Positions 2-14,534 of a DNA stretch of 64,000 bases are shown one piece after another. Source of the stretch: an uncultured Alphaproteobacteria bacterium (GTDB taxonomy: Bacteria > Pseudomonadota > Alphaproteobacteria > Rhizobiales > Aestuariivirgaceae); contig CALMWF010000041.1 in NCBI GenBank assembly GCA_937873445.1, forward strand, positions 62,001 to 126,000. The letters are read 5' to 3'. The notes under the pieces were generated by a model. The model made no database searches. It was not told the origin of the DNA and saw nothing but the letters and a program-made list of their open reading frames with translations. The stretch's first letter is position 1. Each line of letters starts with the position of its first letter. A program made the position numbers and the translations under genes.

Positions 2-784
2 ATGATCCCGACTCTGCACCCGGAAGACCTCGACCGGCGGGTGCGCGACCTCATCATGCTCCAGAACCTGCAGGGCTTCCTGCTGTCGGGCGGCTCCAAC
101 CGGCACAATGAAATCAAGTATGAGCGCTTCTATCCGGTTTTGGAAAAGCTGAAGCGCGATTTTCCCAGCCTGCGCATCGCCATTCACACGGCACTCACCG
201 ATGAACCGGCGGCAAGGCGCATGGAGGCGGCGGGCATCGACACCGCCATGATGGATGTGATCGGCGCCGATGAAACCATCCGCGATGTCTATCACCTCAA
301 CCGGCCGGTGGCGGATTTCGAGCAGACCCTGGCCGCCCTCTGCGCCACCACCATGCAGGTCTCGCCCCACATCGTCATCGGCCTGCACTATGGCCGCATT
401 CTGGGCGAGCAGACGGCCCTCGACATGGTGGCGCGCTACAAGACCCATGCGCTGGTGCTGGTGGTCATCATGCCCTTCTATGCCAAGCCCGGCACTTTCG
501 TGGAGCCGGATGTGCATGAGGTCGGGCGGATCTTCCTGTCGGCCCGTGAAACTCTGGCCGACCGCGATGTGCTGCTGGGCTGCGCCCGCCCCGGCGGCAT
601 GCACAAGCGCATGACCGACGCCTATGCCGTCATGGCCGGGCTGGACGGCATTGCCTTCCCGGCGGAGGGAGCGGCCCCCGTGGCCCGTGCCATTGGCCGC
701 AGCTTTACACAGCAGCATTCCTGCTGCTCGGTGAAACTCGACCCCGCCACCGGCCGCGCGGCGGTTGCCACCTGTGCCGCATGA
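2..784 (+). CDS. lipS1: LipS1, lipoyl synthase half of the sHdr locus (5' partial)
   Basis: Radical SAM enzyme that, with LipS2, inserts sulfur into octanoyl groups on lipoate-binding proteins of the sHdr sulfur-oxidation pathway. The left edge of the window cuts it: the visible 260 residues start at an internal ATG and lack the CxxxCxxC cluster motif, which must lie upstream. What is visible fits the rest of a TIM-barrel radical SAM protein, with a glycine-rich LLSGGSN segment and a C-terminal QHSCCSV that could supply auxiliary-cluster cysteines. It overlaps lipT by four bases (ATGA), so the two are translationally coupled. The assignment rests mainly on the strongly conserved neighbourhood lipS1-lipT-lipS2-ligase; alone, the fragment would only be called a radical SAM protein. 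Confidence 0.8.
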   Translation: MIPTLHPEDLDRRVRDLIMLQNLQGFLLSGGSNRHNEIKYERFYPVLEKLKRDFPSLRIAIHTALTDEPAARRMEAAGIDTAMMDVIGADETIRDVYHLNRPVADFEQTLAALCATTMQVSPHIVIGLHYGRILGEQTALDMVARYKTHALVLVVIMPFYAKPGTFVEPDVHEVGRIFLSARETLADRDVLLGCARPGGMHKRMTDAYAVMAGLDGIAFPAEGAAPVARAIGRSFTQQHSCCSVKLDPATGRAAVATCAA

Positions 785-1854
785 AAAGCCCCGCACCCGT
801 TGATGTTCTGGTGATCGGCCTCGGCCCGGCCGGGGCAGCGGCGGCGGCCGCTGCGGCAGGCGACGGCCGCAGGGTCATGGGCGTTGACCGCCGCGAACAG
901 GCGGGAGAGCCGGTGCAATGCGCCGAATTCGTTCCCTCCCTCATCGGCCTTGAGGTGGCCGATCTGTCAGCGTCCATCCGCCAGGCCATCGAGGGCATGG
1001 TCACCTATGTCGAAACGGAAGCGGGCGACCACAGCCCGGATTTTCGCGGCGTCATGATCTCGCGCGCCGATTTTGACCGCGATCTGGTGAAGAAGGCGGA
1101 AGGGGCCGGTGTTGAATGCCGCTTCAGCAGCCCAGTCCGGGCCATTGCCGCCGACGGCGCGGTGGAACTGGCCTCGGGTGAAATCATCCGGCCACGGATC
1201 ATCATCGGAGCCGACGGGCCGCGTTCCTTCGTCGGCCGCACCATTGGCCGGGTCAATGACGACTGTGTGGAATCGCGCCAGATCACCGTGCCGCTGAAAA
1301 AGCCCCACAACGCCACCGATATTTTCCTCTCCGCTGCCTTTCCCGGCGGCTATGGCTGGCTCTTCCCCAAGGGCGAGGTGGCCAATCTCGGCATCGGGCT
1401 GGCGCCGCAATGGAAGGACCAGTTGAAGCCGCTTCTGGACACGCTGCACCGCCGCCTGGTTGACGAAGGCCGCGTCGGCGCGGAGGTGCTGGGCCTCACC
1501 GGTGGTCTCATTCCCGTGGGCGGCATGCTGAAGGCGGTGGGTCATCTCGGCCCCACTGCAGTCTTTCTTGCCGGCGATGCCGCGGGTCTCGCCAATCCGG
1601 TCACCGGGGCGGGCATTTCCGCCGCCGTCATTTCCGGCACCATGGCAGGCCGCGCCGCCAGGGCGCTGCTGTCGGGGCGCGAAAACGCCGCCGCCGACTA
1701 TATTGAAGAGCTGGATGATCTGTTCGGCCCGTCGCTGGCGCGGGCGCTGAAGCGCCGCCAGGCGCTGCTGGATTGCTATGCCCGCAATGAATTGCCCCAG
1801 ACCGACGATCTGCGCGTCGGCTGGATTGCCTATCCCGAATACTGGGCGGCCTGA
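781..1854 (+). CDS. lipT: LipT, FAD-dependent oxidoreductase of the lipoate assembly block
   Basis: A 357-residue flavoprotein of the geranylgeranyl-reductase/FixC-like family. The N-terminal Rossmann motif GLGPAGAAAAAAA lies at about residues 13-25, followed by an acidic/basic dinucleotide edge (VDRRE). The second FAD motif, FLAGDAAGLANPVTGAG, is near residue 262. In sHdr loci this protein accompanies the LipS1/LipS2 radical SAM pair and is thought to supply electrons for lipoyl synthesis; that role is inference from context. The start overlaps the lipS1 stop (ATGA), and lipS2 follows after 14 bases, so this is a tight operon. No membrane segment is obvious. Prenyl-lipid reduction, the family's name-giving activity, is unlikely here because no isoprenoid genes are near. 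Confidence 0.85.
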   Translation: MKSPAPVDVLVIGLGPAGAAAAAAAAGDGRRVMGVDRREQAGEPVQCAEFVPSLIGLEVADLSASIRQAIEGMVTYVETEAGDHSPDFRGVMISRADFDRDLVKKAEGAGVECRFSSPVRAIAADGAVELASGEIIRPRIIIGADGPRSFVGRTIGRVNDDCVESRQITVPLKKPHNATDIFLSAAFPGGYGWLFPKGEVANLGIGLAPQWKDQLKPLLDTLHRRLVDEGRVGAEVLGLTGGLIPVGGMLKAVGHLGPTAVFLAGDAAGLANPVTGAGISAAVISGTMAGRAARALLSGRENAAADYIEELDDLFGPSLARALKRRQALLDCYARNELPQTDDLRVGWIAYPEYWAA

Positions 1855-1868
1855 GAACGAGGAACACC

Positions 1869-3167
1869 ATGAGCTGCATCAAGAACGAAACCGCCACCCC
1901 CGCCGAACCCGTTCCCGGCGGGCTTGATTTCAATCCCTTCGAGGTGATGGTGCCGCGCCCCGCCGGTGAAACACCGGCGGAAATGAAGAACGGCGCCCGC
2001 GTCAAGGCGAACAATGTGGAACCGGCCGGCGTCTATCGCCCGGACTACCGCATGCTCACACCGCACATGCGCTCGCCCGATTATGTGCAGATGTCCACCG
2101 CCGCCGCCATTTCGCTGGGCGTGGTCAATGGCAAGATGCACCGCTGCGCCTGCACCCGCTGCCTCAACCTGCTTCTCACCTATCCGGAAGGCTGCCGCGC
2201 CAATTGCGCCTATTGCGGCCTTGCCCGCCACCGCGAAGCCGAACGCGACTTTGCTGACCGCAACTTCATCCGCGTCGACTGGCCCGCCGTGCCCATGGAT
2301 GAGGTGGTGAACATTGTGGCGCGCGATGTGAAGGCCAGCCCCTTCCATCGCATGTGCATTTCCATGATCACCCATCCCAAGTCGGATGAGGATACCGTCA
2401 GTGTGCTGAAGAAATGGACGGCGCGCATCGACCCCAGCGACATTCCCGTGTCGATCCTCTCCAACCCCACCACCATGACGCGCGCCGATGTGCAGCGCCT
2501 GAAGGATCTGGGTTCCGACATGTTCACCGTGGCGCTGGATGCCGCCACGCCGGAAATCTTCGACCGCACCCGCGGCAAGGGTGTGGACAGCCCGCATTCG
2601 TGGAAAAAATACTGGGACGTGCTGCTCGACGCCAGGGACATCTTCGGGCCGGAGAAATTCGGCGTCCACATCATCGCCGGCATGGGCGAGACCGAGCATG
2701 ACATTCTCACTCTGGTCCAGCAGGTGAAGGATCTGGGCGGTCACAGCCACATGTTCTGCTTCTTCCCTGAAAAGGGTTCGCTCATGGACCATCTGCCCGC
2801 CACCCCGCGCGACCAGTGGCGGCGCGTGCAGCTGGGCCGCTATCTCATTGACTATTTCGGCGTGAAGGTGGCGCAGATGCGCTTCGACAACCATGGCCGG
2901 GTCATCGACTTCGGTCTGCCGTCGGGCGAACTGGACACGGTGATTGACGCGGGCCTTGCCTTCCGCACCTCCGGCTGCCCGGGCAAGTTCGGCGAGGATA
3001 TTTCCGCCTGCGACCGGCCCTATGGCGACAGCCCGCCCAGCAATATCGCAAGCTATCCCTTCCAGCCGGAAGCGGCCGACCTGCGCCGCATCCGCCACCA
3101 GCTGGGCCGCGAAAAGCCGGGCCAGGAATACCGCGAGGGCGAGGAATTCGAGGGCCTCGATTCGTGA
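1869..3167 (+). CDS. lipS2: LipS2, radical SAM lipoyl synthase partner
   Basis: A 432-residue radical SAM protein. The SAM-cluster motif CRANCAYC (C109, C113, C116) is clear, and it is preceded by CACTRC (C93, C95, C98), which could hold an auxiliary iron-sulfur cluster as lipoyl synthases require. A further cysteine pair (SGCPGKFG...SACDRP) lies near the C-terminus. Known LipS1/LipS2 pairs divide the two sulfur insertions that LipA performs alone. The gene starts 14 bases after lipT behind a plausible ribosome site (GAACGAGGAACACC), and its end overlaps the GTG start of the ligase gene. Biotin-synthase-like enzymes share the fold, but the ligase and lbpA context points to lipoate. Confidence 0.87.
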   Translation: MSCIKNETATPAEPVPGGLDFNPFEVMVPRPAGETPAEMKNGARVKANNVEPAGVYRPDYRMLTPHMRSPDYVQMSTAAAISLGVVNGKMHRCACTRCLNLLLTYPEGCRANCAYCGLARHREAERDFADRNFIRVDWPAVPMDEVVNIVARDVKASPFHRMCISMITHPKSDEDTVSVLKKWTARIDPSDIPVSILSNPTTMTRADVQRLKDLGSDMFTVALDAATPEIFDRTRGKGVDSPHSWKKYWDVLLDARDIFGPEKFGVHIIAGMGETEHDILTLVQQVKDLGGHSHMFCFFPEKGSLMDHLPATPRDQWRRVQLGRYLIDYFGVKVAQMRFDNHGRVIDFGLPSGELDTVIDAGLAFRTSGCPGKFGEDISACDRPYGDSPPSNIASYPFQPEAADLRRIRHQLGREKPGQEYREGEEFEGLDS

Positions 3168-4225
3168 AGCCATTCCGTGTGATCGACACTGGCGTCCGTG
3201 CGGGCAGGGCGCAGATTGCCTTTGACCAGGCCCTGATTGACCTGCATCGCGACGGCGTCATTGGTGACACCATCCGCTTTCTCACCTTTCCGCCCACCGT
3301 TCTGGTGGGCCGCCATCAGGCGATCTCGCAGGAGCTTCACCTTGACGCCTGCCGCGCCGCGGGTGTGGGCATTGGCCGACGCATCACCGGCGGTGGTGCC
3401 CTCTATCTCGACGAACACCAGTTCGGCTGGGAGCTGATCTTCCACCGCAACACACTGGGCATTGCCTCGCTCGCCGATCTCACGCGTTTGATCTGCGAGG
3501 CGGCGGCCCATGGCCTGTCGAAACTCGGCATCGATGCCCGCTACCGGCCGCGCAACGACATTGAGGTGGGGGGCCGCAAGATCTCCGGCACCGGCGGGTT
3601 CTTCGACGGCGACACACTGTTCTATCAGGGCACGGTGCTGGGGGCTCTTGACCCTGCCGTGATGGTCAGCCTGCTCAACATTCCCGAGGCCAAGCGCGCC
3701 AAACATGCGGCTTCTGGCCCGCGCGTTGTCACGCTTGCCGAACTGTTCAATGGCGCGCCGCCACCCCTTTCGGAGGTGAAGCGCGTGATGCTGGAGGGCT
3801 TTGCCGAAAAACTGGGAATAGCGCCGCAGTGGCAGGACATCACCGCACGCGAGGAGGAACTGGCCCAACAGCTCCACGACGATGAAATCGGCACCGATGG
3901 CTTTGTCTATGAAATTGACGATCCCGCCGCCCATGCCGATGTGCTGGTGGGCGAGGTGCAGTCGCCGGGTGGGATGATCACTGCCCATGTGCGGCTGGAG
4001 GGCCGGCACGAGCCACGCTATCGCGAAGTGGTCATCACCGGTGATTTCTTTGTCACCCCGCCGCGCACCATCTTTGATCTTGAAGCCGCCCTGCGCGGCA
4101 GTCTGGTCAGCGACACGGCGGTAACCGTGGCCGACTTCTTCCGCACCGCCAGTGTCGGCCTTCTCAGCGTGCGGCCCGACGATTTTCTGGCGGCCCTGTG
4201 CGCGGCCACGGCGAAGGCCGCATGA
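3164..4225 (+). CDS. slpl(AB): Two-domain lipoate:protein ligase of sHdr type, sLpl(AB)
   Basis: A 353-residue lipoate-protein ligase. The catalytic-domain signatures are present: RRITGGGALYLDE near residues 74-86 (lipoyl-binding loop) and RPRNDIEVGGRKISGTGG near 127-144, with the catalytic lysine in KISG. The remaining C-terminal region of about 100 residues is long enough to be the LplB-like accessory domain, so one polypeptide could activate and transfer octanoate or lipoate. Its likely target is LbpA at 11708. The start is GTG, overlapping the lipS2 stop as GTGA. The following gene overlaps its stop by four bases. It could also modify GcvH or E2 subunits, but the locus argues for a dedicated role. 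Confidence 0.88.
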   Translation: MKPFRVIDTGVRAGRAQIAFDQALIDLHRDGVIGDTIRFLTFPPTVLVGRHQAISQELHLDACRAAGVGIGRRITGGGALYLDEHQFGWELIFHRNTLGIASLADLTRLICEAAAHGLSKLGIDARYRPRNDIEVGGRKISGTGGFFDGDTLFYQGTVLGALDPAVMVSLLNIPEAKRAKHAASGPRVVTLAELFNGAPPPLSEVKRVMLEGFAEKLGIAPQWQDITAREEELAQQLHDDEIGTDGFVYEIDDPAAHADVLVGEVQSPGGMITAHVRLEGRHEPRYREVVITGDFFVTPPRTIFDLEAALRGSLVSDTAVTVADFFRTASVGLLSVRPDDFLAALCAATAKAA

Positions 4226-4914
4226 AACTGCTTCATGTCATCCAGCACACCTCGGCCGAATATCTCGGTCTGATGGAGGATCATTTTGACGGCCGCGGCA
4301 TTCGCTACCGCTATTTTCGTCCGTTTACGGAGGGAACGCCCTTGCCCGCCCGCTCGGCCACGGTCGATGGCCTCATTCTGCTGGGCGGCGGCCCCTGGGG
4401 CAGCCTGGGTGAACGCGCCCTGCCCACCCTGGCTGAGGAGGTGGCCCTCACCCGCGTCTATCTGATGAGCGGCAAGCCGGTCATCGGCATCGGCCTCGGC
4501 GCCCAGATCCTGGCCCTTGCCGCCGATGGCCAGACGGAGGCTGCCCCTCTCACCTTTGCCGTGGCCACGGCCCGGCGCGAGTCTCCTGATTCGCTGGCCG
4601 GTTTCATGCCTGAAACGATGCCGCACATCACCTACATGCGCGACCGGCCCGTGCCGCCCGCCTATGCTGTCACACTTTCGCGTGATGAGGCCGGTGCGCC
4701 AGCGGCCTTTCAACTGGGTGATAATGTCTTCGGCTTCCTTGGCCACCCCGGATTTAAGCGCGCCATGGCCGAAGATCTGATCATGGAATTCTCCGAATCT
4801 CCGGAAAATCCGGGCCCCGGTCTGGATCAGCTGACAGCAGTCAAAGGCCAAATAGAGGATTCTTTAATACCGCTTATGACGGGTATTATCGGGAAAACCG
4901 GCCTTATGCGTTAG
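4222..4914 (+). CDS. Class I glutamine-amidotransferase-fold protein lacking catalytic residues
   Basis: A 230-residue protein with the layout of a class I glutamine amidotransferase (GMP-synthase-like domain): an early LILLGGGPWGS oxyanion-type loop at 51-61, a nucleophile-elbow strand at 87-95 and a late HP motif. At the elbow the usual GxCxG reads GIGLG, so residue 91 is glycine where the cysteine nucleophile belongs. The late HPE reads HPGF (H175, P176, G177), so the catalytic glutamate is missing too. It should therefore not hydrolyse glutamine, and a binding or scaffolding role is more likely. It overlaps the ligase gene (ATGA) and ends the lipoate block. Its function is unknown. The last 20 codons are more AT-rich than the rest. 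Confidence 0.8.
   Translation: MKLLHVIQHTSAEYLGLMEDHFDGRGIRYRYFRPFTEGTPLPARSATVDGLILLGGGPWGSLGERALPTLAEEVALTRVYLMSGKPVIGIGLGAQILALAADGQTEAAPLTFAVATARRESPDSLAGFMPETMPHITYMRDRPVPPAYAVTLSRDEAGAPAAFQLGDNVFGFLGHPGFKRAMAEDLIMEFSESPENPGPGLDQLTAVKGQIEDSLIPLMTGIIGKTGLMR
4865..4888. repeat. Perfect 7-bp inverted repeat in the 3' end of the amidotransferase-like gene
   Basis: TAATACC at 4865-4871 and GGTATTA at 4882-4888 form a perfect inverted repeat with a 10-base spacer. It lies within the last codons of the coding sequence, so it may be a DNA site or an mRNA hairpin affecting 3'-end stability. No function can be assigned. Confidence 0.3.
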
Positions 4915-5059: not shown

Positions 5060-5437
5060 ATGAGCAAGAAGCTCTTGATCGTCATGGCCAACACGGACCC
5101 GCGCAACGGTGAGGAACTGGGCGCGCCCTTTTTCCAGGCCACCGTGGCCGCCGCCATGGAATACGAAGTTGAAGTCATCTGCACCGCCACCTCCGGCCGC
5201 CTGATGAAAAAGGGCGAAGCGGAAAAGCTGGTGGTCAAGGAAGGCTCGCCCAAGACCGTCTATGATTTCATCAAGGACGCACACGACGCGGGCGCCGTGT
5301 TCAAATGCTGCTCCCCCAATCTTGAACTCTTCAGCATGACCGAAGCCGATCTTATTCCCGAATGCTCGGGTATCGTCGGCGGCGCGTATCTGATTGAGGA
5401 GATCATGGAAGGCGACTGCAAGGTTCTCACCTACTAA
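5060..5437 (+). CDS. dsrE3C: DsrE3C-type cytoplasmic sulfurtransferase
   Basis: A 125-residue DsrE-fold protein. The adjacent cysteines C83-C84 in VFKCCSPNLELF are the expected persulfide carriers of the DsrE3C group found in sHdr loci. A third cysteine, C41, lies in a central strand and C100 near the C-terminus. In this pathway DsrE3C is thought to exchange sulfane sulfur with TusA and deliver it to LbpA or sHdr; that is known for relatives and inferred here. The start has a GGGAGTG ribosome site and lies behind the structured leader. It is the first gene of the sHdr operon, 13 bases before hdrC1. A second DsrE protein of a different subgroup is at 13805. Confidence 0.88.
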   Translation: MSKKLLIVMANTDPRNGEELGAPFFQATVAAAMEYEVEVICTATSGRLMKKGEAEKLVVKEGSPKTVYDFIKDAHDAGAVFKCCSPNLELFSMTEADLIPECSGIVGGAYLIEEIMEGDCKVLTY

Positions 5438-5450: not shown

Positions 5451-6197
5451 ATGAGCCATGCCCACGGTTCGCGGGTTCAGGAGTATATTGGCGACCCCGT
5501 GTCAGAGGCGCCGCAGGTGCCGCGCGCAAAGCTGGAAGAAATCTTCCAGGACATTCAGTCGGACATTCGCTTCGATCACGAGCTGAATGGCTGCCTGAAT
5601 TGCGGCATCTGCACCGCCACTTGCCCGGCTGCCTATTATTACGACTACAGCCCGCGCGAAATCGTGCAGCTCCTGTGGACGGAAAATCTCGAAGGCATCT
5701 ACGACGCCATGCAGGAAAAGATCTGGGCCTGCGCCCAGTGCTACACCTGCGCGGCGCGCTGCCCGTTCGGCAACTCTCCCGGCGGTCTCGTCATGCTGAT
5801 GCGCGAGACCGCCATCAAGCACGGCATGGAATCAGCCAAGAACGTGCTGCGGCCCTTCAGCCGCGTCATGCTGAAGCTGATCTCCACCGGCAACCAACTT
5901 GCCCCCGACATGATCAACCCCGATCATTTCGCCGACTGGGGCCCCAACATTGCCAAGGTGAAGGCGCCGCTGAAAACGCTGCGCCGCGCCATTCCCATGC
6001 CCACCCTGAACACCACCACCACCGCCTGGGAGGTCAACCTCAAGACCTCGGTGGAACTCTACACCATCTGGGAAATGACGGGCGTTCTCGACCAACTCGA
6101 AACCATCGACCAGAACCTCTTCGACGTCATCACCGACATCATGGATGAGAAGCGCGACGAGTGGAAAGATTTCCTGGACGAGCAGGACGACGATTGA
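5451..6197 (+). CDS. hdrC1: sHdrC1, iron-sulfur subunit of the sHdr complex
   Basis: A 248-residue HdrC-like electron-transfer subunit with two ferredoxin-type [4Fe-4S] motifs: CLNCGICTATCP (C48, C51, C54, C58) and CAQCYTCAARCP (C94, C97, C100, C104). The rest is helical and lacks membrane segments, so it is cytoplasmic. It should pass electrons between HdrB1 and HdrA. An upstream in-frame start exists, but the ATG at 5451 has an AAGGAG site nine bases before it and avoids overlap with dsrE3C. Order and spacing match the conserved hdrC1-B1-A-hyp-C2-B2 set of sulfur oxidisers rather than methanogen HdrABC. Confidence 0.92.
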   Translation: MSHAHGSRVQEYIGDPVSEAPQVPRAKLEEIFQDIQSDIRFDHELNGCLNCGICTATCPAAYYYDYSPREIVQLLWTENLEGIYDAMQEKIWACAQCYTCAARCPFGNSPGGLVMLMRETAIKHGMESAKNVLRPFSRVMLKLISTGNQLAPDMINPDHFADWGPNIAKVKAPLKTLRRAIPMPTLNTTTTAWEVNLKTSVELYTIWEMTGVLDQLETIDQNLFDVITDIMDEKRDEWKDFLDEQDDD

Positions 6198-6242
6198 TCC
6201 AGCAACGATCGGCGCTTGATCAGCGCCTGGGAGGAAGCACGA

Positions 6243-7604
6243 ATGGCGAAAAAGCCGACCACCACTGAAGGCGAGCGTTTCACCGGGCACGGTTCCGAGT
6301 GGCGCCCCGCCAACCTGAGCCCGGAGGATGCGCGCACCGCCACCGCCTGGGTTGAGCAGAAGATCGACAAGCGCTCCATGCTGGTCAACAAGGACCGCGT
6401 GCAGGACGTGCGCGACGCCATGTGGGAATTGGAAAAGGACGGCCAGATCGTTGTGCACCGCATCCGCGATGAGCATGAGCCGGTCATTGCCAAGACCATT
6501 TATGGCTGGGACAAGAAAATCCCCACCAACCAGCTCTGGCATCACAAGTCCTGCGGCCAGTGCGGCAACATTCCGGGCTACCCCGCCTCGCTGCTCTGGA
6601 TCATGAACCAGTTCGGCACGCGCTATCTCGATGAAACCGACCAGACCTCCTGCACAGCCTGGAATTACCATGGCTCGGGCATCGGCAATCTGGAAAGCCT
6701 GGCCGCCGTGTTCCTGCGCAATTTCCATCAGGCCTATGTGGCGGCCAAGGCCCAGGGCCTGCCGGAGGGCTATTACTACCCGCTGGTGCATTGCGGCACC
6801 TCCTTCGGCAACTACAAGGAAGTGCGCGGTTATCTGCTGTCCTCGGCCAAGCTGCGCGAGAACGTGAAGAAAATTCTCGAGAAGCTCGGCCGCCTGGTGG
6901 ATGGCAAGCTGCTGATCCCGGAGGAGATCGTTCACTACTCCGAATGGGTGCACATGATGCGCCACCAGATCGCCGAACGCCGGGTGATTGACGTGAGCCA
7001 CATCCGCGCCACCGTTCATCCCGCCTGCCACGTCTATAAAATGGTTCCGCAGGACGCGATCTATGACGACGACATTCTGGAAGGCAACCGCGTGGCCGTT
7101 TCCACCGGCGTCATGCAGGCCCTCGGCGCCCAGGTCATTGACTATTCAACCTGGTATGACTGCTGCGGCTTCGGCTTCCGCCACATCATCTCCGAGCGTG
7201 AATTCACCCGTTCCTTCGCTCTTGACCGCAAGATCAAGGTGGCGGTGGAGGAGGCCAGGTCCGACGTGATGATCGGCCATGATACGGGCTGCGTTACCAC
7301 CCTCGACAAGAACCAGTGGATCGGCAAGGCCGTGGGCAAGGACTATGAACTGCCCATCCTCGCCGACGTGCAGTTTGCCGCCCTCGCCATGGGTGCTCAC
7401 CCCTACAAGATCGTGCAGTCCCACTGGCATGCCTCTGCCACCGAAAAGCTCATGGAAAAAATGGGCATCGACTGGCAGGCCAAGAAGGCCGAATTCGAGG
7501 CCTATCTCACCGATGTCGAGGCGGGCAAACAGGAAAACCTTTATGACCCGCGCCGCATGATCACTTCCGGTCCCGGCTTCAAGAAAATCGAGCAACGCAC
7601 ATGA
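6243..7604 (+). CDS. hdrB1: sHdrB1, CCG-domain subunit of the sHdr complex
   Basis: A 453-residue HdrB-like protein. The C-terminal CCG-type motif has C262, the C307-C308 pair and C350, but the expected last cysteine of the CxxC is threonine (CVTT at 350-353). The N-terminal half has only scattered cysteines: C104 and C107 in SCGQC, C137 and C184. It thus differs from HdrB2, which has two intact CCG motifs; this asymmetry is a feature of sHdr complexes and suggests that only some noncubane clusters form here. The ATG at 6243 follows a GGGAGG site; an earlier in-frame start lacks one. The gene overlaps hdrA by four bases. Confidence 0.92.
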   Translation: MAKKPTTTEGERFTGHGSEWRPANLSPEDARTATAWVEQKIDKRSMLVNKDRVQDVRDAMWELEKDGQIVVHRIRDEHEPVIAKTIYGWDKKIPTNQLWHHKSCGQCGNIPGYPASLLWIMNQFGTRYLDETDQTSCTAWNYHGSGIGNLESLAAVFLRNFHQAYVAAKAQGLPEGYYYPLVHCGTSFGNYKEVRGYLLSSAKLRENVKKILEKLGRLVDGKLLIPEEIVHYSEWVHMMRHQIAERRVIDVSHIRATVHPACHVYKMVPQDAIYDDDILEGNRVAVSTGVMQALGAQVIDYSTWYDCCGFGFRHIISEREFTRSFALDRKIKVAVEEARSDVMIGHDTGCVTTLDKNQWIGKAVGKDYELPILADVQFAALAMGAHPYKIVQSHWHASATEKLMEKMGIDWQAKKAEFEAYLTDVEAGKQENLYDPRRMITSGPGFKKIEQRT

Positions 7605-8653
7605 GCAAACCCATTCTGATTGTTGGCGGTGGCCCCGCCGGTCTCTCCGCCGCCCACATGCTGGCCCAGCTTGGCCAGAAAACGGTGCTGGTGGAAAAGC
7701 TGCCCCATCTCGGCGGCGCGCCCATCGTTTCGGGCTATGCCAAATTGGTGCCCTCGGGCGAGTGGGCCAAGGACGCCATCGGCGGCATGATCGCGCGTGT
7801 TGAAAAGAACAAGCTTGTGGACGTGCGCCTTTCCACCACGGTGAAGGACTTCAAGGGCGAGCCGGGCAAGTTCACCGCCACGCTCTCGGACGGCAAGAAG
7901 GTGGAGGCGGCCTCGGCCGTGCTGTGCACCGGCTTCACCCACTTTGACGCCATCAACAAGCCCGAATGGGGCTTTGGCATGTTCCCGGATGTGGTCACCA
8001 CCGCACAGGTGGAGCAGATGATCTCCTCCGGCCAGGGCGTGCGCCGCCCCTCTGACGGCAAGAAGCCGCAGCGCGTGGCCATCCTGCTGTGCGTCGGCTC
8101 GCGTGACCGCCAGATCGGGCGCGAGTGGTGTTCCAAGATCTGCTGTTCGGTGTCGGCCAATCTCGCCATGGAAATCCGCGAGGAACTGCCGGATTGCCAC
8201 GTCTATGTCTATTACATGGACATCCGCACCTTCGGTCTGCTGGAAACCAAGTATTATTGGAAGAGCCAGGAGGAGTTCAAGGTCAAGTACATCAAGGCGC
8301 GCATTGCCGAAGTGACCGCCCAGGGCGACAAGCTTCTGGTCAAGGGCGAGGACACGCTGGTCAAGCGCCCCATCACCATTCCCTTCGACATGGTGGTGCA
8401 GGCCATCGGCATGGACCCCAATGTCGACAACATGCTGCTGTCGGCCGTCTTCGGCATCGATCTGGAGCCCCATGGCTACATCGGCAAGGCCAACAGCTAT
8501 GGCACGCAGGGCGCAACCTCGCGGCCCGGCGTGTTTGTGGCCGGCTCGGCCACCGGGCCGGAAACCATTGACGACTCCATTGCCCAGGCCAATGCCGCCG
8601 CCCTTGCCGCCTATGCCACGGCCCAGGGTGCTGGCCTGAAGGCCGCCGAATAG
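7601..8653 (+). CDS. hdrA: sHdrA, FAD subunit of the sHdr complex
   Basis: A 350-residue flavoprotein. The FAD-binding fold starts at residue 5 with VGGGPAGLSAAHML, and the second dinucleotide motif GVFVAGSATGPETIDDSI is near the C-terminus. An HdrA-type [4Fe-4S] motif is visible as CVGSRD...WCSKICC (C164, C177, C181, C182). It is much shorter than methanogenic HdrA, lacking the extra ferredoxin domains, as is usual for sHdrA. It is the central electron-handling subunit of the cytoplasmic complex. It overlaps hdrB1 (ATGA) and is followed after four bases by the unknown hyp gene. Confidence 0.93.
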   Translation: MSKPILIVGGGPAGLSAAHMLAQLGQKTVLVEKLPHLGGAPIVSGYAKLVPSGEWAKDAIGGMIARVEKNKLVDVRLSTTVKDFKGEPGKFTATLSDGKKVEAASAVLCTGFTHFDAINKPEWGFGMFPDVVTTAQVEQMISSGQGVRRPSDGKKPQRVAILLCVGSRDRQIGREWCSKICCSVSANLAMEIREELPDCHVYVYYMDIRTFGLLETKYYWKSQEEFKVKYIKARIAEVTAQGDKLLVKGEDTLVKRPITIPFDMVVQAIGMDPNVDNMLLSAVFGIDLEPHGYIGKANSYGTQGATSRPGVFVAGSATGPETIDDSIAQANAAALAAYATAQGAGLKAAE

Positions 8654-8657
8654 GCCC

Positions 8658-9527
8658 ATGCGCTGGAAGGCCTTCCATAGCGCGCCCAAGGGTGCGACGG
8701 CGCTGCCGCCCCTGCCGGAGCTTCACCTTTCAGGTGAGGTGCTGCGGCAGGCGCTGCAGGCCGTCATTACGGGTGCTGAGGAACTGGGCGGCATTGAGCG
8801 CTACGTGGAAGCGGTAAAGCTCAAGTCCGACCTGTTCAAGGATGCGCTCGGCTCCGGCAAGCACCGGACGGTGCCACTCGAAACCTTCATGAGTCTCGCC
8901 ACCTTCATGTCGTCGGTGCGCCGCCGCATCACGCCCTATCTTGATGAAAAGGGCATGAAGCTGATCCGCGAAGGGCTGGCCATTCTGCTGGATGACGCCG
9001 GCGACACCGCCTCGACCGACCAGCGCATGGCCGCCTTTGCCCGTCTTTTCCCGGAGGACCGCGCCCACAGCTATGTGCGCGACCTGGCGGCGGAGGTGCT
9101 GCACTATACCGACCCGGAGCGTTACCCGCTCATGTGCCGCTGGGTGTGGGATGCCGCCACCAACACCGGCGCGCTGCGTGAAATGTGGTTCGGCGACAAT
9201 GTCGATCACACCATCATTCCCGCCGGCGACAAATATGACACCTTCCTGGCGCTGCGCCGCGACCTTGCCACGCTCTTGACCGAGAACGGCGTGTTCCGCG
9301 ACCATCTGTTCTACATGGATCTGCTCACCGCCCAGGTCTATTCGCACTACATCTGCGCCCAGGGCGGCACCTATCTCAGGGCCGACTTCGCCTCACCCCA
9401 GGACCCCATGCAATATACCCGCCGCCTGCTGGGCCTTGACGGGGTGGAACCGCGCTCCGGCCGCGCCCGCCTGAAGTCCATCGACGGCAGCGCCTTCATC
9501 ATCGACGATCACAAGCTCCTCGGCTGA
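8658..9527 (+). CDS. Conserved unknown protein Hyp of the sHdr operon
   Basis: A 289-residue soluble protein between hdrA and hdrC2, the position of the hyp gene in sHdr loci. No cofactor motif is visible and only two cysteines are present (PLMCRW and YICAQ), so it is unlikely to carry an iron-sulfur cluster. The sequence looks mainly helical, with a conserved-looking block HYTDPERYPLMCRWVWD near residue 148. It starts four bases after hdrA and 13 before hdrC2, so it is made with the complex and may be an assembly factor or structural subunit. Its function is unknown. Confidence 0.85.
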   Translation: MRWKAFHSAPKGATALPPLPELHLSGEVLRQALQAVITGAEELGGIERYVEAVKLKSDLFKDALGSGKHRTVPLETFMSLATFMSSVRRRITPYLDEKGMKLIREGLAILLDDAGDTASTDQRMAAFARLFPEDRAHSYVRDLAAEVLHYTDPERYPLMCRWVWDAATNTGALREMWFGDNVDHTIIPAGDKYDTFLALRRDLATLLTENGVFRDHLFYMDLLTAQVYSHYICAQGGTYLRADFASPQDPMQYTRRLLGLDGVEPRSGRARLKSIDGSAFIIDDHKLLG

Positions 9528-9540: not shown

Positions 9541-10332
9541 ATGGCCATTCATGAAAAATCGCTGATCCGCCCGGAAAACATCAGAAGCCAGGAAAACATC
9601 GTCATCGACGGCATTGACGTGTCGGGCCACTGGTCCACCTTCATCAATGCCCGTGTCATCACCGACTATAATGAAAAGATGCAGGATGAAATTCAGGCCT
9701 TGCCGGGGGGTGAGAACATTCACCGCTGCTGGCAGTGTGGCTCCTGCACCAACAGCTGCACGGTGAACGCCATCGAGCCGCGCTTCAACCCGCGCTACTG
9801 GATCTATCTCATCCGCATGGGCCTGGAGAGCGAGCTTCTGCGCGACAAGGACATCATCTGGCAGTGCGTGTCGTGCAACAAGTGCACCAACATCTGCCCG
9901 CGTGACGTGGTGCCGGAAGGCATCATGAAAGCCACCGCCAAATGGCTGGAGCTGAAAGGCCACACCGAGGTCAATCCTTCCACCCACTTCGACGAAGCCT
10001 TCATGGAGCAGATTTCGGCCACCGGCCGCATCGAGGAAGGCAAGACCATGCGCATGCTGTTCAAGCGCACCGGCCGCTCGCTGTTCCAGGACTGGCTCAT
10101 CGAAATGGTGAAGCGCATCGCCGTGAAGCTGCCCATGCACTACGTCTTCGGCATGGGCATCGAGCAGATCTTCCCGCCGCGCGTGTCGGGCTGGAAAAAA
10201 CGGCTTGGTCCGGCGCTTGATGACTATGTCCACGAAAGTGAAAAGAAACAACGCCAGGCGCTGGGTCTGGATGACTTGATCAGCATGGCGCAGGCCGAGG
10301 TTCGGCCCGCCCACCAGAAAGCCGCGGAATAG
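9541..10332 (+). CDS. hdrC2: sHdrC2, second iron-sulfur subunit of the sHdr complex
   Basis: A 263-residue HdrC-like protein with two [4Fe-4S] motifs: CWQCGSCTNSC (C63, C66, C69, C73) and CVSCNKCTNICP (C109, C112, C115, C119). A basic helical tail follows. It is clearly related to HdrC1 but differs outside the cluster motifs, as in other sHdr operons where C1B1 and C2B2 form two arms around HdrA. The start has an AAAGGGA site, and hdrB2 follows after 12 bases with its own site. No membrane segment is seen. It should move electrons between HdrB2 and the rest of the complex. Confidence 0.92.
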   Translation: MAIHEKSLIRPENIRSQENIVIDGIDVSGHWSTFINARVITDYNEKMQDEIQALPGGENIHRCWQCGSCTNSCTVNAIEPRFNPRYWIYLIRMGLESELLRDKDIIWQCVSCNKCTNICPRDVVPEGIMKATAKWLELKGHTEVNPSTHFDEAFMEQISATGRIEEGKTMRMLFKRTGRSLFQDWLIEMVKRIAVKLPMHYVFGMGIEQIFPPRVSGWKKRLGPALDDYVHESEKKQRQALGLDDLISMAQAEVRPAHQKAAE

Positions 10333-10344: not shown

Positions 10345-11277
10345 ATGGCTGAGATCATCAACACCATGAAGCGGGTGGCCTACTACCACGGCTGTGCGCT
10401 GGACGGCACCGGCCACGGCTATAACCGCTCCACCCGCGCGCTGGCCGGCGCCCTCGACCTTGAGCTTGAGGATGTGAAGAACTGGAACTGCTGCGGCGCC
10501 ATGGAAACCAAGAACATCGACAATGAGGTGCAAACCTACCTGTCGTCGCGCGTTCTCTCCATTGCTGCCAATGAAATGGGCCACAAGAAGGTGATGGCCC
10601 CGTGCAACGGCTGCTACCACAATCTCAAGAAGGCCGAATATGACCTTGGCCACAAGGAAAAATCGCGCGAGGTGGTGGAGCGTATTTCCGCAAAGGCCGG
10701 CCACGAACCGTACAAGGCCGGTCAGATTGAAATCATTCACGCGGTGGACTGGATCAAGGAATCCATCGGCGAGGAGGGCATCCGCGAGCGCACCAAGGGC
10801 AAGCTCAAGGGCCTGAAGGTGGCCAACTATTACGGCTGCATGTACACCCGCCCGCGCCACATCTTCCCCGGGCGTGACGCGGGCCCGGGCACGGAATCAA
10901 ACTTCCGCCCGCATTTCATGGATGACATTCTGGGTGCGGCAGGCGCCACCAATGTGGACTTTCCGCTGAAGAGTGCCTGCTGTGGCGGTGCCCACACGCT
11001 CTGTGATTCCGATACTTCCACCAAGCTCTGCATCAACATTCTGCAAACCGCCGAGGCGGCTGGTGCCGACGTGATCGCCACCGAATGCCCCACCTGCCAT
11101 GCCGGTTTGGAAATGCACCAGATCCGTGCCGAAAAGGTCTTCGGCATCAAGACCAATGTGAAGATGATCTATTTCACCCAGCTTCTGGGCATCGCCATGG
11201 GTCTGTCGCACCGCAAGGTCGGCCTGCAGGAAAATGTCTCGGATGCGTCCTCGGTGCTGAAGGCCAAGGGCATCTGA
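10345..11277 (+). CDS. hdrB2: sHdrB2, catalytic-type CCG subunit
   Basis: A 310-residue HdrB-like protein with two complete CCG motifs: C17, C49-C50, C87/C90 (APCNGC) and C165, C212-C213, C248/C251 (TECPTC). In the family these bind noncubane [4Fe-4S] clusters that work on disulfide-type substrates. It is therefore the better candidate than HdrB1 for the site where LbpA-bound sulfur is handled; that is inference. The start follows a GGGAGAAAG site. Its stop overlaps the ATG of the next small gene (TGATG). Confidence 0.93.
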   Translation: MAEIINTMKRVAYYHGCALDGTGHGYNRSTRALAGALDLELEDVKNWNCCGAMETKNIDNEVQTYLSSRVLSIAANEMGHKKVMAPCNGCYHNLKKAEYDLGHKEKSREVVERISAKAGHEPYKAGQIEIIHAVDWIKESIGEEGIRERTKGKLKGLKVANYYGCMYTRPRHIFPGRDAGPGTESNFRPHFMDDILGAAGATNVDFPLKSACCGGAHTLCDSDTSTKLCINILQTAEAAGADVIATECPTCHAGLEMHQIRAEKVFGIKTNVKMIYFTQLLGIAMGLSHRKVGLQENVSDASSVLKAKGI

Positions 11278-11705
11278 TGGCCACCCCCTGGGAGGATATT
11301 GAGCGCGCCATTGAGGCGCCGGGCCAGAGCCCGGAAAGGCTGCTTGCTCTGGGCGAACAGATCCTTGAGAACTGGCTGGAGGCAAAGGGCTTCACCCCCA
11401 CCGAGGCGAAGCGTGAAAGCTTCCGCCTGCTGGCGCTCCATCATCAGGGAGCGAAGGATGAACCCTCCTTCAACGCCTGCCGTGAAACCTGCCGCGAGCT
11501 GGCCTGGCACTATAATCTGCTCAAGGACGGCGGCCCCGAGGCTGGCAATGCCGCAACCCGCGCCATGATGGTCATGGTGGCCAAGCATCTCATGCTGTTT
11601 GTGCGCGGCAAAATGGAAGTTGCGGAACTCGGTGAATTTTGCTGTTCTTCCAGACCAATTCGAGCGTTGGACAAAGACGAACTCCAAACCCAAGCAAGAG
11701 GCTGA
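11277..11705 (+). CDS. Small unknown protein between hdrB2 and lbpA
   Basis: A 142-residue soluble protein not recognised as a named family. Its body is helical and acidic to neutral, with NACRETCREL near residues 65-74. Close to the C-terminus an adjacent cysteine pair (EFCCSSRP, about residue 122) resembles persulfide-carrying pairs, though no fold can be claimed. It overlaps the hdrB2 stop (TGATG) and ends two bases before lbpA, so it is translationally coupled to both. The context suggests a partner of LbpA or HdrB2. The start is well fixed by the overlap. Confidence 0.75.
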   Translation: MATPWEDIERAIEAPGQSPERLLALGEQILENWLEAKGFTPTEAKRESFRLLALHHQGAKDEPSFNACRETCRELAWHYNLLKDGGPEAGNAATRAMMVMVAKHLMLFVRGKMEVAELGEFCCSSRPIRALDKDELQTQARG

Positions 11706-11707: not shown

Positions 11708-12148
11708 ATGCCAAAAGTCAGAGGCTGCAATCTCCCCGACGATCTTCTGTATGACGTCGACAATCACATCTGGTTCCGCGACATGGGTGACGGCAATGTC
11801 CGCCTCGGCATGACCACGGTGGCTACCGCGCTGGCGGGCCAGCTTGTTGCCTTCACGCCCAAGAAGGCGGGCAAGGCCATTGAAGCGGGCAAGTCCTGCG
11901 CCACGGTTGAATCCGGCAAGTGGGTCGGCCCCGCCAAGTCCGCTGTGGCGGGCGAGGTTGTGAAGATCAATGATGAACTGGTGGGCAAGCCCAGCCTTGC
12001 CAACGACGATCCCTATGACAAGGGCTGGATGGTGCTGCTGAAGCCCACCGACTGGGCGGGCGTTAAGGCCACGCTGACACCGGGTTCGGCGGTGGCCGCC
12101 AAGTATGAGGCCAAGATGGCCGCCGACGGTTTCGCCGGCTGCGCCTGA
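11708..12148 (+). CDS. lbpA: LbpA, lipoate-binding protein of sulfur oxidation
   Basis: A 146-residue GcvH-like carrier. The lipoyl-domain hairpin reads CATVESGKWVGPAKS, with the predicted lipoylated lysine at K71. It differs from glycine-cleavage GcvH (usually SVKA around the lysine) and carries extra cysteines (C7, C64, C145) not needed in GcvH. In sHdr bacteria LbpA carries the sulfur substrate while sHdr oxidises it toward sulfite. No glycine-cleavage genes are near, whereas hdrB2 and a complete lipoate assembly block are, which supports LbpA over GcvH. The start follows an AAGAGGCTGA site. A strong terminator follows. Confidence 0.93.
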   Translation: MPKVRGCNLPDDLLYDVDNHIWFRDMGDGNVRLGMTTVATALAGQLVAFTPKKAGKAIEAGKSCATVESGKWVGPAKSAVAGEVVKINDELVGKPSLANDDPYDKGWMVLLKPTDWAGVKATLTPGSAVAAKYEAKMAADGFAGCA

Positions 12149-12268: not shown

Positions 12269-12622
12269 TCAGTCGAGTCGGGGGCGGCTCAGGCAGCCCA
12301 CCAGCAGGTCCATGCGGCGCTTGTTCAGGGCCGCCCAGGCGGCCGCAATCTGCGCATCATCAGCCGTGGGGCTGGCGGCATGGCGTGCAAACACGGCGGC
12401 GATGAAGGCGGCCAGTTCCGGGTTCAGTTCAAAGGTGCGCAAATCACCCTGGGTCCAGCCCAGCAGCAGGGCAGCCTTGCCGAAGCGGGCGGCATCGCGT
12501 TCCACCCGCGCCAGCTGCTCAAGCTTCTCCAGGCGCAGAATGTCTTCCTTCAGCAGCTGGGCGGCAAACATGCTCTGGGTTTGCGCCGCCTCGGCGCGCA
12601 GCTCATCAATCAGCTTCATCAT
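12269..12622 (-). CDS. Small unknown helical protein
   Basis: A 117-residue soluble protein rich in Ala, Leu and Glu, predicted mostly helical with a possible short coiled coil at residues 20-45 (LLKEDILRLEKLEQLARVE). No catalytic motif is visible. Its ATG overlaps the stop of the deacetylase-like gene (ATGA), so it is the second gene of that small operon and may be a partner of the enzyme. I do not recognise the family. Confidence 0.65.
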   Translation of the reverse strand: MMKLIDELRAEAAQTQSMFAAQLLKEDILRLEKLEQLARVERDAARFGKAALLLGWTQGDLRTFELNPELAAFIAAVFARHAASPTADDAQIAAAWAALNKRRMDLLVGCLSRPRLD

Positions 12623-13680
12623 TCCTCCGCAACAGCATCCGACAGGGTGACCAGCCAGGCCGGATTGATTTCGTCATCATCCACCAGATCGCAGGTGAGG
12701 GCAGATAAAATCTTTGTGGCGGCCTCAGGCAGGCGCTTCGGCAATGCATAGCCGTTGAGTCTTCCCCACAGTCCCACCCAGCAGCGCACCGTGGTCCATG
12801 GATTATAACCGCCGCCGCCCAGCACCACGGCGCGCGGGGCCGCCCCCGCCACGCCCACCACCGCATCCCACAGCGCATCATTGCTCAGCATCATGCCGGA
12901 CAGGGGGTCTCCGGCCAGGCCATCAGCCCCGCAGGTGATGACCACGGCCTCCGGCGCGAAAGCGGCCAGCACCGGCATGACGCCAGCCTCCATCACCGCT
13001 CTGTACTGCGAATCAGTGACGCCGCGCGGCACCGGAAAGTTGCGCGCCTGCGGCCCGTGGCCCTGTCCGGTGCCCGGCCAGCGCTTTTCCTCATGCACGG
13101 AAATGCACATCACCCTTGCATCCTGTGCAAAGGCATCCTCCACCCCGTCGCCATGGTGGGCATCAACATCGACATAGGCCACGCGCTTCAGACCGCCGTC
13201 GAGAAGTGTCAGAATGGCAAACACCGGATCGTTGAAATAGCAGAAGCCGGAGGCGCGGTCAGGGCGGCCATGATGCGTGCCGCCTGCGGGGTGATAGGCA
13301 AGGTGTCCGGCCAGCGCCAGCTGTGCGGCCATCACGGAACCTCCGACCGAACTTGCCGCGCGTTCGAAAAGTCCTGTGAATACGGGGTTTTCCATGGTGC
13401 CCAGCGCAAAGGTTTCGCGCTCTGCCCGGCTGGCCTGGCCGCTGCGGCTCACCGCCTTCACCGCCGCCACATAGTCGGCGCGGTGAAACCGCGTCAGCAC
13501 GGCATCATCGGCCATGCCGCTGGCGCGGTAATTATCGGCATCAAGAAAACCTAAAATCCGGCAAATATCCGTCACCGGTCCGATGCGTCCGATGGCCAGA
13601 GGATGCCCCGGCGGATAGCCCTTGGCGTAATAGATTGGGCTGCTGATGAACAAGGGCTGTTTCCCGGACAACACAGTCAT
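12619..13680 (-). CDS. Histone-deacetylase/AcuC-family amidohydrolase
   Basis: A 353-residue class I/II deacetylase-fold enzyme. The metal site is visible in YVDVDAHHGDGVEDAF, with the usual ASGFCYFNDP before it, SVHEEKRWPGTG after it and the C-terminal LGGGGYNPWTT loop. Bacterial members deacetylate acetyl-lysine (AcuC, acting on acetyl-CoA synthetase) or acetylpolyamines; which applies cannot be told. The ATG at 13680 has an AAGGA site; a further-upstream in-frame start would run through the dsrE3A promoter. It is divergent from dsrE3A-tusA and shares their intergenic region. The link to sulfur oxidation may be accidental. Confidence 0.85.
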   Translation of the reverse strand: MTVLSGKQPLFISSPIYYAKGYPPGHPLAIGRIGPVTDICRILGFLDADNYRASGMADDAVLTRFHRADYVAAVKAVSRSGQASRAERETFALGTMENPVFTGLFERAASSVGGSVMAAQLALAGHLAYHPAGGTHHGRPDRASGFCYFNDPVFAILTLLDGGLKRVAYVDVDAHHGDGVEDAFAQDARVMCISVHEEKRWPGTGQGHGPQARNFPVPRGVTDSQYRAVMEAGVMPVLAAFAPEAVVITCGADGLAGDPLSGMMLSNDALWDAVVGVAGAAPRAVVLGGGGYNPWTTVRCWVGLWGRLNGYALPKRLPEAATKILSALTCDLVDDDEINPAWLVTLSDAVAEE

Positions 13681-13743: not shown

Positions 13744-13759
13744 ATTCTAATATATGAGT
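13744..13759. promoter_or_regulatory. ATTC-N8-GAGT operator candidate, dsrE3A/deacetylase intergenic region
   Basis: ATTC-TAATATAT-GAGT lies 45 bases before dsrE3A and 63 before the divergent deacetylase gene. It differs in one base from ATTC-N8-GAAT, the type of site bound by sulfide-responsive ArsR regulators of the BigR/SqrR group. The inner TTCTAATATAT (13745-13755) recurs exactly, on the other strand, at 37131-37141. Confidence 0.45.
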
Positions 13760-13778
13760 TTGCGCAAATAAGCATAAC

Positions 13779-13792
13779 AAATACCGGTATTT
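13779..13792. repeat. Perfect 14-bp palindrome before dsrE3A
   Basis: AAATACCGGTATTT is a perfect palindrome ending 12 bases before the dsrE3A start, in the untranslated leader. As DNA it could bind a dimeric regulator near the start site; as RNA it would form only a short hairpin beside the ribosome site. No known factor is assigned. Confidence 0.35.
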
Positions 13793-13804
13793 ACGGAGAG
13801 CCCC

Positions 13805-14293
13805 ATGGCTGACAATCCCAAGAGCATGTCCATCATCGTCACCAAGGGCTCGCTCGACTGGGCCTACCCGCCCTTCATTCTCGCCACCACGGCAGCCGCC
13901 ATGGATGTGAAGGTGACCATGTTCTTCACCTTCTACGGTCTTGAGCTTCTGAAGAAGAAACTCGACCTTCAGGTTTCGCCGCTGGGCAATCCCGCCATGA
14001 AGATGCCCATGGCCGGCATGCACATGGCCATGCCCAACCTTGTCGGCATGCTGCCGGGCGTGGATGCCGCAGCCACGGTCATGATGAAGAACATGATCAA
14101 GAAGAAGGGCGTGGCCTCCATTGAGGACCTGCGCATGGCGGCGGTTGAATCCGACGTGAAGATGATTGCCTGCCAGATGACCATGGACCTCTTTGAATAC
14201 AAGATGGAGGACATGATCGAAGGGCCGGTTCTCGGCGGTGCGGCCTCCTGGGTCGACCTCGCCACCAAATCCGACATCAACCTGTTTATCTGA
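13805..14293 (+). CDS. dsrE3A: DsrE3A-type sulfur carrier protein
   Basis: A 162-residue DsrE/DsrF-like protein with a methionine-rich flexible middle (GNPAMKMPMAGMHMAMPN, residues 61-78). The single conserved cysteine C123, in KMIACQMTMDLF, is the expected persulfide or thiosulfonate carrier. DsrE3A proteins work with TusA in moving sulfur in the cytoplasm. tusA follows 16 bases later with its own AAGGAG site. The start is preceded by ACGGAGAG. Unlike DsrE3C at 5060 it has no adjacent cysteine pair, so the two probably act at different steps. Confidence 0.88.
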   Translation: MADNPKSMSIIVTKGSLDWAYPPFILATTAAAMDVKVTMFFTFYGLELLKKKLDLQVSPLGNPAMKMPMAGMHMAMPNLVGMLPGVDAAATVMMKNMIKKKGVASIEDLRMAAVESDVKMIACQMTMDLFEYKMEDMIEGPVLGGAASWVDLATKSDINLFI

Positions 14294-14309
14294 TTGCCAA
14301 GGAGACATC

Positions 14310-14534
14310 ATGGCTGACAAGACTCTCGACGCCAAGGGCCTGAACTGCCCGCTGCCCATTCTGCGCGCCAAGAAGGCAATCAATGAAATCAGCCCCGGCC
14401 AGACGCTGGAAGTGCTGGCCACCGACCCGGGCGCGGTTGCCGACTTCGCCGCCTTCTGCCGCACCACCGGCAATGAACTGGTTGAATCCGGCCAGACGGG
14501 CAATGTTTACCGTTTTGTGATTAAGAAGACTTGA
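14310..14534 (+). CDS. tusA: TusA sulfur carrier protein
   Basis: A 74-residue TusA/SirA-family protein. The signature AKGLNCPLPILRAKKAI gives the persulfide cysteine C13 in the CPxP motif. TusA distributes sulfane sulfur; beside dsrE3A and near sHdr it is expected to feed sulfur into oxidation rather than tRNA thiolation. An upstream in-frame start inside dsrE3A was rejected because the ATG at 14310 has a clean AAGGAG site. It forms an operon with dsrE3A. Confidence 0.93.
   Translation: MADKTLDAKGLNCPLPILRAKKAINEISPGQTLEVLATDPGAVADFAAFCRTTGNELVESGQTGNVYRFVIKKT

Follow-up and report, generated by a model that had tools for sequence, protein, structure and literature searches.

The stretch of DNA analyzed here, referred to as the window, comprises 64,000 nucleotides from an uncultured alphaproteobacterium (Rhizobiales, Aestuariivirgaceae; GenBank assembly GCA_937873445.1, contig CALMWF010000041.1, positions 62,001 to 126,000; G000:C41:62001-126000 in our coordinates), whose genome of 2.58 Mb is 98% complete. 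It opens with a locus for sulfur oxidation by the sHdr-LbpA system, in which genes for sHdr proteins and for the lipoate-binding protein LbpA accompany genes for lipoate assembly, and the question raised by this locus is whether it holds anything beyond the published system. Genes were listed from reading frames and profile matches (Pfam, NCBIfam). The sHdr-LbpA core is itself ordinary; the new part is the linkage of an HDAC-family gene to the lipoate genes. We read the encoded protein as a dedicated, accessory component of the lipoate system, to which we assign a probability of roughly 75%. That it belongs to the lipoate/sHdr system at all appears very probable from its synteny and phylogeny. 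The gene, which the initial annotation of this DNA had left unnamed, lies between lbpA and dsrE3A with its catalytic residues intact:

12619..13680, minus strand: HDAC-family deacylase (predicted) of a distinct sHdr/lip-linked branch (Pfam Hist_deacetyl 218.7 bits, gathering score 27.9)

The PF00850 match is above the gathering score, and the histidine pair, the Asp/His/Asp zinc site and the tyrosine of the family are all present. Residues HH 135-136, D172, H174, D252 and Y291 (numbering of the 352-aa query), which we take to have zinc-binding and catalytic roles, are the same in all 45 of the locus proteins aligned, including that of the window. The related loci came from a contig scan with an sHdrB1-led query, which returned 512 relatives; the best 80 of them, hence top matches to one query and nearly all records of metagenome-assembled genomes (MAGs), are called the 80 loci, and their record names point to alpha- and gammaproteobacterial lineages. 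The closest is L032 (uncultured alphaproteobacterial MAG SRR2107213_bin.93), whose sHdrB1 is 96% identical and whose gene order is the same as in the window locus. Two further loci, L030 and L031, complete the counts given over 82 loci and stand outside the counts of HDAC synteny and of completeness, which refer to the 80. The lipS1 gene was in view in 48 of the 80 loci, and a homolog of the HDAC-family gene was found somewhere in 43 of these 48: directly upstream of lipS1 and on the same strand in 36, about 1.2 kb further upstream in four, and elsewhere in the locus in three. No such gene was found in five of the 48, three of which have at most 733 bases upstream of lipS1. In 37 loci (the 36 and L030), the gap between the HDAC and lipS1 open reading frames was measured with start codons chosen by script; its median was 18 bp, and in eight loci it was negative. 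HDAC and dsrE3A were on opposite strands in 31 of the 32 loci with both genes (the pair in L068 is 1.5 kb apart), and the window keeps this divergent pair even though its lipS1 sits at the far end of the locus. In L163, one of the four loci with a more distant HDAC gene and, by length, the same contig as L058, the intervening gene resembles, by eye, a YeeE/SoxT transporter gene.

The linkage was also seen in genome samples, which overlap the 80 loci by at least four genomes (G185/L058, G357/L047, G238/L070 and G433/L035, the contigs of each pair being identical by length). Among 385 genomes of the class, 247 had an HDAC match, while sHdrB1 was matched at E≤0.001 in 15, of which five weak ones were left out, giving ten strong matches. 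After the own genome, the best five HDAC matches in the class all belonged to sHdr genomes and had lipS1 and tusA within 1.5 kb, whereas none of the next 24 had a lip or shdr neighbor within that distance. In the stretches read of the remaining four sHdr genomes of the class, lipS1 was absent from three, and G196 had lipS1 without an HDAC gene. In a sample of 396 genomes of the phylum, LipS1 was matched at E≤0.001 in 12, and four weak matches were left out; six of the eight strong ones had the HDAC gene directly upstream, the own genome had it in the locus, and G385 was without it. Genome G724 (100% complete as listed, 10 contigs) carries HDAC-lipS1-lipT-lipS2-sLpl together with lbpA, dsrE3C, dsrE3A and tusA (L030, L170), and it gave no sHdrB1 match, its single CCG-domain protein adjoining hydrogenase genes; judged from its gene content, it apparently has LbpA without sHdr. 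Since the HDAC gene stands beside lipS1 in this genome, its company is that of the lip genes and not of sHdr.

A tree of 74 HDAC rows (71 of them different) placed the 50 sHdr/lip-linked rows on one branch with support of 100/100, apart from the 24 others, which are the next-best matches from a single class and include L143, an HDAC from the sHdr genome G001, with no lip gene within 1.5 kb. Seven positions separate the linked proteins from the others; query position 107, for instance, is Ala in 50 of 50 and Pro in 24 of 24. By sequence, the nearest solved structure to the window protein is HDLP (1c3p, 1c3r; E=3.4e-57), the source of which is presumably Aquifex aeolicus. When HDLP was added to a thinned tree, the linked branch was kept (18 rows, 100/100, bootstrap not settled) with L143 adjacent to it (89/90). 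HDLP itself fell outside, on a very long branch whose position is unsure and with bootstrap not settled, so that its membership in the sHdr-linked branch was not supported. All analyzed Aquificae belong to Group I of the sHdr systems (PMC6067878).

The remaining features of the locus and of its downstream flank are as follows.

1..784, plus strand: lipS1, 3' part only (full gene L006:11747-12784, 345 aa; NCBIfam LipS1 is the best model)
781..1854, plus strand: lipT, flavin adenine dinucleotide (FAD) oxidoreductase of the geranylgeranyl-reductase superfamily (profile matches; position as in the published lipS1-lipT-lipS2-slpl(AB), PMC10332631)
1869..3167, plus strand: lipS2, radical SAM lipoyl synthase subunit (NCBIfam LipS2 187.3 bits; CRANCAYC)
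3164..4225, plus strand: sLpl(AB) lipoate:protein ligase with catalytic and LplB domains (Pfam LplA-B_cat 130.8 bits; NCBIfam LplB 43.8 bits at 263-348)
4222..4914, plus strand: lipX, GATase1-type, without the catalytic cysteine (GIGLGAQ; Pfam GATase 24.3 bits, cut-off 22.8)
5060..5437, plus strand: dsrE3C sulfurtransferase (Pfam DrsE_2 36.9 bits; homolog in 78 of 82 loci)
5451..6197, plus strand: shdrC1 (HdrC and Fer4 models)
6216..7604, plus strand: shdrB1 (HdrB and CCG models)
7601..8653, plus strand: shdrA flavoprotein (HdrA2 model 215 bits, below cut-off)
8658..9527, plus strand: sHdrH ("hyp"), predicted all-helical, in 79 of 82 loci
9541..10332, plus strand: shdrC2 (HdrC/QmoC and Fer4 models)
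10345..11277, plus strand: shdrB2 (HdrB 155.4 bits, below cut-off; CCG domain over cut-off)
11277..11705, plus strand: sHdrI ("hyp"), in 66 of 82 loci, no Pfam match
11708..12148, plus strand: lbpA, GcvH-like lipoate-binding protein, K71 (Pfam GCV_H 108.1 bits; ESGKWVGP at 68-75)
12269..12622, minus strand: 117-aa protein (homologs in 14 of 82 loci; no Pfam match over cut-off)
13805..14293, plus strand: dsrE3A (DsrE2/E3 family) sulfurtransferase (Pfam DrsE_2 167.7 bits; NCBIfam DsrE2 218.2 bits)
14310..14534, plus strand: tusA (Pfam TusA 88.1 bits)
14599..15852, plus strand: FadL/OmpP1-type porin, possible lipY counterpart (Pfam Toluene_X 74.5 bits; homologs in 31 of 82 loci)
15931..20545, minus strand: soeCBA-like membrane-bound molybdoenzyme genes (DmsC/NrfD, Fe-S and molybdopterin subunits)

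Judged by these genes, the locus is a Group I sHdr-LbpA sulfur-oxidation locus of a known kind with its own sLpl(AB)-LipS1/S2 lipoate assembly, and it almost certainly encodes a working system. The hdr genes have the order and common strand of Group I, a GcvH-like LbpA is encoded beside them, and maturation genes are in the cluster. Much of what had been noted from the sequence earlier was borne out: reading frames and profiles confirmed all six sHdr core genes in canonical order on one strand (C1-B1-A-H-C2-B2); LbpA matches GCV_H and has its lipoyl lysine, K71, in a motif found in 64 of 64 aligned rows; the three sulfur carriers DsrE3C, DsrE3A and TusA are present by family profiles; and such loci were indeed known, the gene order having been published for Hyphomicrobium denitrificans. 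As for the lipoate-making genes claimed for the window, lipT, lipS2 and the two-domain ligase stand, while lipS1 is not whole, since the window edge cuts the gene. The description of the set as unusually complete and compact did not hold, as the same 16 genes occupy 14.6-15.9 kb in ten of the 80 loci, nor did the direct link to soeABC, since the porin gene intervenes and the locus and the soeABC-like genes face each other convergently. Besides the HDAC gene, the initial annotation had passed over lipX, sHdrH, sHdrI and the second minus-strand gene, that of the 117-aa protein. All 13 lip, shdr and lbpA genes counted were found in at least 42 of the 80 loci, with the HDAC gene too in 38 of those 42; dsrE3A and tusA in addition were found in at least 27, and lipT as well in at least ten, L032 included, these counts being lower bounds because many loci stop at contig edges. 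The NCBIfam HdrA, HdrB and HdrC models match the sHdr proteins below their cut-offs, and the NCBIfam name for the protein called DsrE3A here is DsrE2 (218.2 bits against a cut-off of 210). Homologs of the 117-aa gene never share the strand of shdrB1, and most of them lie just past lbpA. The structure model of sHdrH is all-helical (predicted local distance difference test score, pLDDT, 80.0); a comparison of its fold with the PDB gave no match at E≤0.001, and its sequence matches were weak.

By homology and synteny, sulfane sulfur would be relayed by TusA, DsrE3A and DsrE3C, the carriers acting in that sequence, to lipoylated LbpA, and sHdr would oxidize the sulfur to sulfite, which the SoeABC-like enzyme may oxidize further. 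The Group I pathway and the essential role of LbpA have been described (PMC6067878, PMC10332631), and the LbpA requirement, attachment by the ligase, the insertion of sulfur and the formation of sulfite were demonstrated elsewhere. No SoxB match over the cut-off was found in the 98%-complete genome (a single match of 106 bits against 550); for this reason, the measurement of thiosulfate oxidation proposed along with the initial annotation is doubtful for this organism, which may draw its sulfur from another source than H. denitrificans does.

The lipoate assembly line is as expected for two radical SAM proteins with CX3CX2C and an LplA/LplB ligase. The lipS1 gene starts 254 bases before the first base of the window, so its CX3CX2C (residues 71-78) is outside. 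Full-length LipS1 scores 186.3 bits against the NCBIfam cut-off of 230 and LipS2 187.3 against 270; as each is still the best model, we take the low scores as probable divergence from the model seeds and not as a sign of another family, the cut-offs being thresholds that curators set for naming and no feature of the pathway itself. The LplB domain of sLpl(AB) is likewise under its NCBIfam cut-off (43.8 against 65 bits). The three cysteines of CX3CX2C are invariant in 48 of 48 LipS1 rows, CRANCAYC in 50 of 50 LipS2 rows, and the lysine of KISGTGG in 55 of 55 ligase rows. Elsewhere the genome encodes LipB (L009:1405-2097), LipA (L019:1270-2223) and GcvH (L011:1492-1860), which makes the sLpl(AB)-LipS1/S2 route an additional one and fits a route dedicated to LbpA; such an additional lipoate route exists likewise in other sulfur oxidizers (PMC6067878). 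In this scheme, sLpl(AB) would attach free octanoate or lipoate to K71 of LbpA, and LipS2 and LipS1 would insert sulfur, with electrons probably supplied by LipT, a role that is a published proposal.

The closest described counterpart is the lip-shdr-lbpA2 locus of H. denitrificans (Hden_0682-0698), which shares lipS1-lipT-lipS2-slpl(AB)-lipX followed by dsrE3C-shdrC1B1A-hyp-C2B2-hyp-lbpA (PMC6067878, PMC10332631, PMC10451225), down to the ATGA overlap of slpl and lipX (4222-4225 in the window). It differs in having shdrR and soxT1A before lipS1 and sox genes past tusA (PMC10451225), whereas the window has the HDAC and 117-aa genes between lbpA and dsrE3A, and its genome has no SoxB over the cut-off. 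In Thioalkalivibrio sp. K90mix, the same lipoate-assembly enzymes act on LbpA, but their genes are in another order (lipS1-slpl(AB)-lipT-lipS2), and no HDAC is mentioned in the main text (PMC10332631). The Thioalkalivibrio ligase takes only free octanoate or lipoate (PMC6067878, PMC10332631), and a settled source of these for the ligase of sulfur oxidizers was not found in the parts of the literature examined. It is here that a deacylase-family gene directly before lipS1 in 36 of 48 loci becomes a candidate for a part in providing the lipoate tag or in taking it off.

In the mechanism that we favor, the protein would be a zinc amidohydrolase that acts on acyl-lysine; octanoyl- or lipoyl-lysine may tentatively be put forward as its substrate, at less than even odds. 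It could provide the ligase, which is unable to use acyl-acyl carrier protein, with octanoate or lipoate released from other lipoyl-domain proteins, or it could strip wrongly or incompletely modified LbpA; its part would be accessory, in supply, quality control or regulation. A more specific proposal, in which the sHdr-linked HDACs would be lipoamidases or deoctanoylases that depend on zinc and belong to the LbpA system as its own enzymes, either feeding the ligase or erasing LbpA, is at present rather doubtful. There is a precedent for bacterial removal of lipoyl groups from carrier proteins in the lipoamidase CobB of E. coli (PMC5596343), which, however, is an NAD-dependent sirtuin of another family than the predicted HDAC-family deacylase of the window; the delipoylase literature, among the papers listed, concerns mostly sirtuins. 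In SirTM/GcvH-L/LplA2 operons, a GcvH-like protein, its own ligase and a deacylase-family enzyme are likewise encoded together, but SirTM is an ADP-ribosyltransferase without protein deacylase activity (PMC4518038). If the proposal were true, a lipoyl eraser would be built into an energy-metabolism operon, and one branch of bacterial HDAC-family proteins would have a physiological setting.

Several other explanations have to be weighed against a lipoate-dedicated deacylase. The protein might remove no lipoyl or octanoyl groups at all but act as a lysine deacetylase by which LbpA or the sHdr proteins stay free of acetyl groups, for example at K71 before lipoylation. The full catalytic set and the listed solved relatives (HDLP, HDAC8, HDAC1/2, RPD3 and HDAC6) suit this idea, which would also yield the same operon linkage; we regard it as possible, if on the unlikely side, since the HDAC gene adjoins lipS1 in G724, where sHdrB1 was not found, and acetylation of LbpA or of sHdr proteins was met in no report, although no search was aimed at that alone. 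The same relatives bear on an action on a small molecule, such as an acetylpolyamine-like compound or an acyl-amide of sulfur metabolism. Small-molecule amidohydrolases with the HDAC fold do exist; among the solved relatives, the 60 listed comprise HDLP and HDACs of the protein type, and such a role seems improbable. It would equally surprise us if the gene encoded an AcuC-like housekeeping deacetylase, a hitchhiker kept by synteny alone. HDAC-family genes are common, as their presence in 247 of the 385 class genomes attests, and some sHdr loci lack one, but a chance passenger is hard to reconcile with a single separate branch (100/100), with 43 of 48 loci across alpha- and gammaproteobacterial lineages, with short or overlapping gaps, and with the lack of any lip or shdr gene within 1.5 kb of the 24 other HDACs of the class.

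Rather unlikely, too, is that there is nothing here beyond the published sHdr-LbpA system and that specialists already know the HDAC gene from a figure or supplement. PMC10332631 has an S5 Table of genomic arrangements, and the legend of Figure 2 in PMC6067878 mentions white genes not conserved between groups. Yet the words "deacetylase", "deacylase" and "histone" are absent from the main texts (figures and supplements not covered) of the sHdr and lipoate literature examined, and searches joining HDAC with sHdr or LbpA terms gave nothing relevant by title among the papers listed (one paper, on methanogens).

Other observations weigh against the assignment of the HDAC-family protein to the lipoate system, or limit how far it can be taken. 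The gene is missing from L056, L076 and L031/G385 despite enough flank, and none was seen in the stretch read of G196; in H. denitrificans, shdrR and not an HDAC gene is upstream of lipS1 (PMC10451225). It is, therefore, not essential to the pathway. Nor is it needed for attachment, since a helper plasmid with lipS1-slpl(AB)-lipT-lipS2 (also written lipS2-Y in the methods), for which the text consulted mentions no HDAC, led to modified LbpA in E. coli (PMC10332631). In the window, the HDAC gene and lipS1 are at opposite ends of the locus. Furthermore, many of the 80 loci come from related MAGs and the samples overlap, so that the counts are not independent, and the HDACs used for comparison represent one class, with L143 among them although G001 is an sHdr genome.

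The soeABC-like genes at 15931-20545 (minus strand), from which the locus is separated by the FadL-type porin gene (14599-15852), comprise three subunit types of a DMSO-reductase-family enzyme with no twin-arginine leader by eye. No NCBIfam model was over its cut-off among the rows listed for these proteins; SoeABC is thus a plausible identity for them but not a proven one. Loci with a soeA match nearby do recur but are rare (one of the 80 loci, L070, plus L189 outside them), although flanks often stop short. Beside these genes, in the window at 20825-26113, is a gene for a ModE-like regulator with TOBE domains, and beyond it the minus strand carries what are, by eye, genes for PhoB, PhoU and Pst phosphate uptake.

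In LipX, the position of the nucleophile, which we assume to be the cysteine of a class I GATase motif GxCxGxQ, is Gly in 72 and Glu in two of 74 aligned rows (matches of more than 170 residues, some rows near-identical) and Cys in none. For want of the catalytic cysteine, the reading as a working glutamine amidotransferase was rejected, and, from its sequence, LipX is probably a GATase1-like protein and not a glutaminase. The annotation given to it in the literature is that of a putative glutamine amidotransferase (PMC10332631).

Just upstream of the window and divergent from lipS1, a second lipoate ligase is encoded that is fused to DUF116 (L006:9939-11597, minus strand) and whose DUF116 domain carries conserved cysteines. 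DUF116 was matched in two of the 385 class genomes including the own, the other match being below cut-off and with in-frame stops, and the fused C-terminal part was present in three of 398 phylum genomes (the own, G724 = L030 and G385 = L031). In G724 and G385, the fusion stands beside lip or lbpA genes, as it does in L032, and the other loci of the 82 are without it; in G385, the sLpl(AB) between lipS1 and lipT itself bears a DUF116 domain. No literature joining DUF116 with lipoate was found, the DUF116 papers among those listed being unrelated by title. The fused protein gave a weak structure model (pLDDT 65.8, four sequences), and the 50 matches listed of 735 in the PDB are of the lipoate/biotin ligase type. 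Further genes upstream of the lip genes encode two SulP-family transporters and a rhodanese (L006:5824-10015). Finally, NiFe-hydrogenase genes with, by eye, an HdrD-like subunit are found near the lip genes both here (L006:181-5468) and in G724 (L170:4268-9578).

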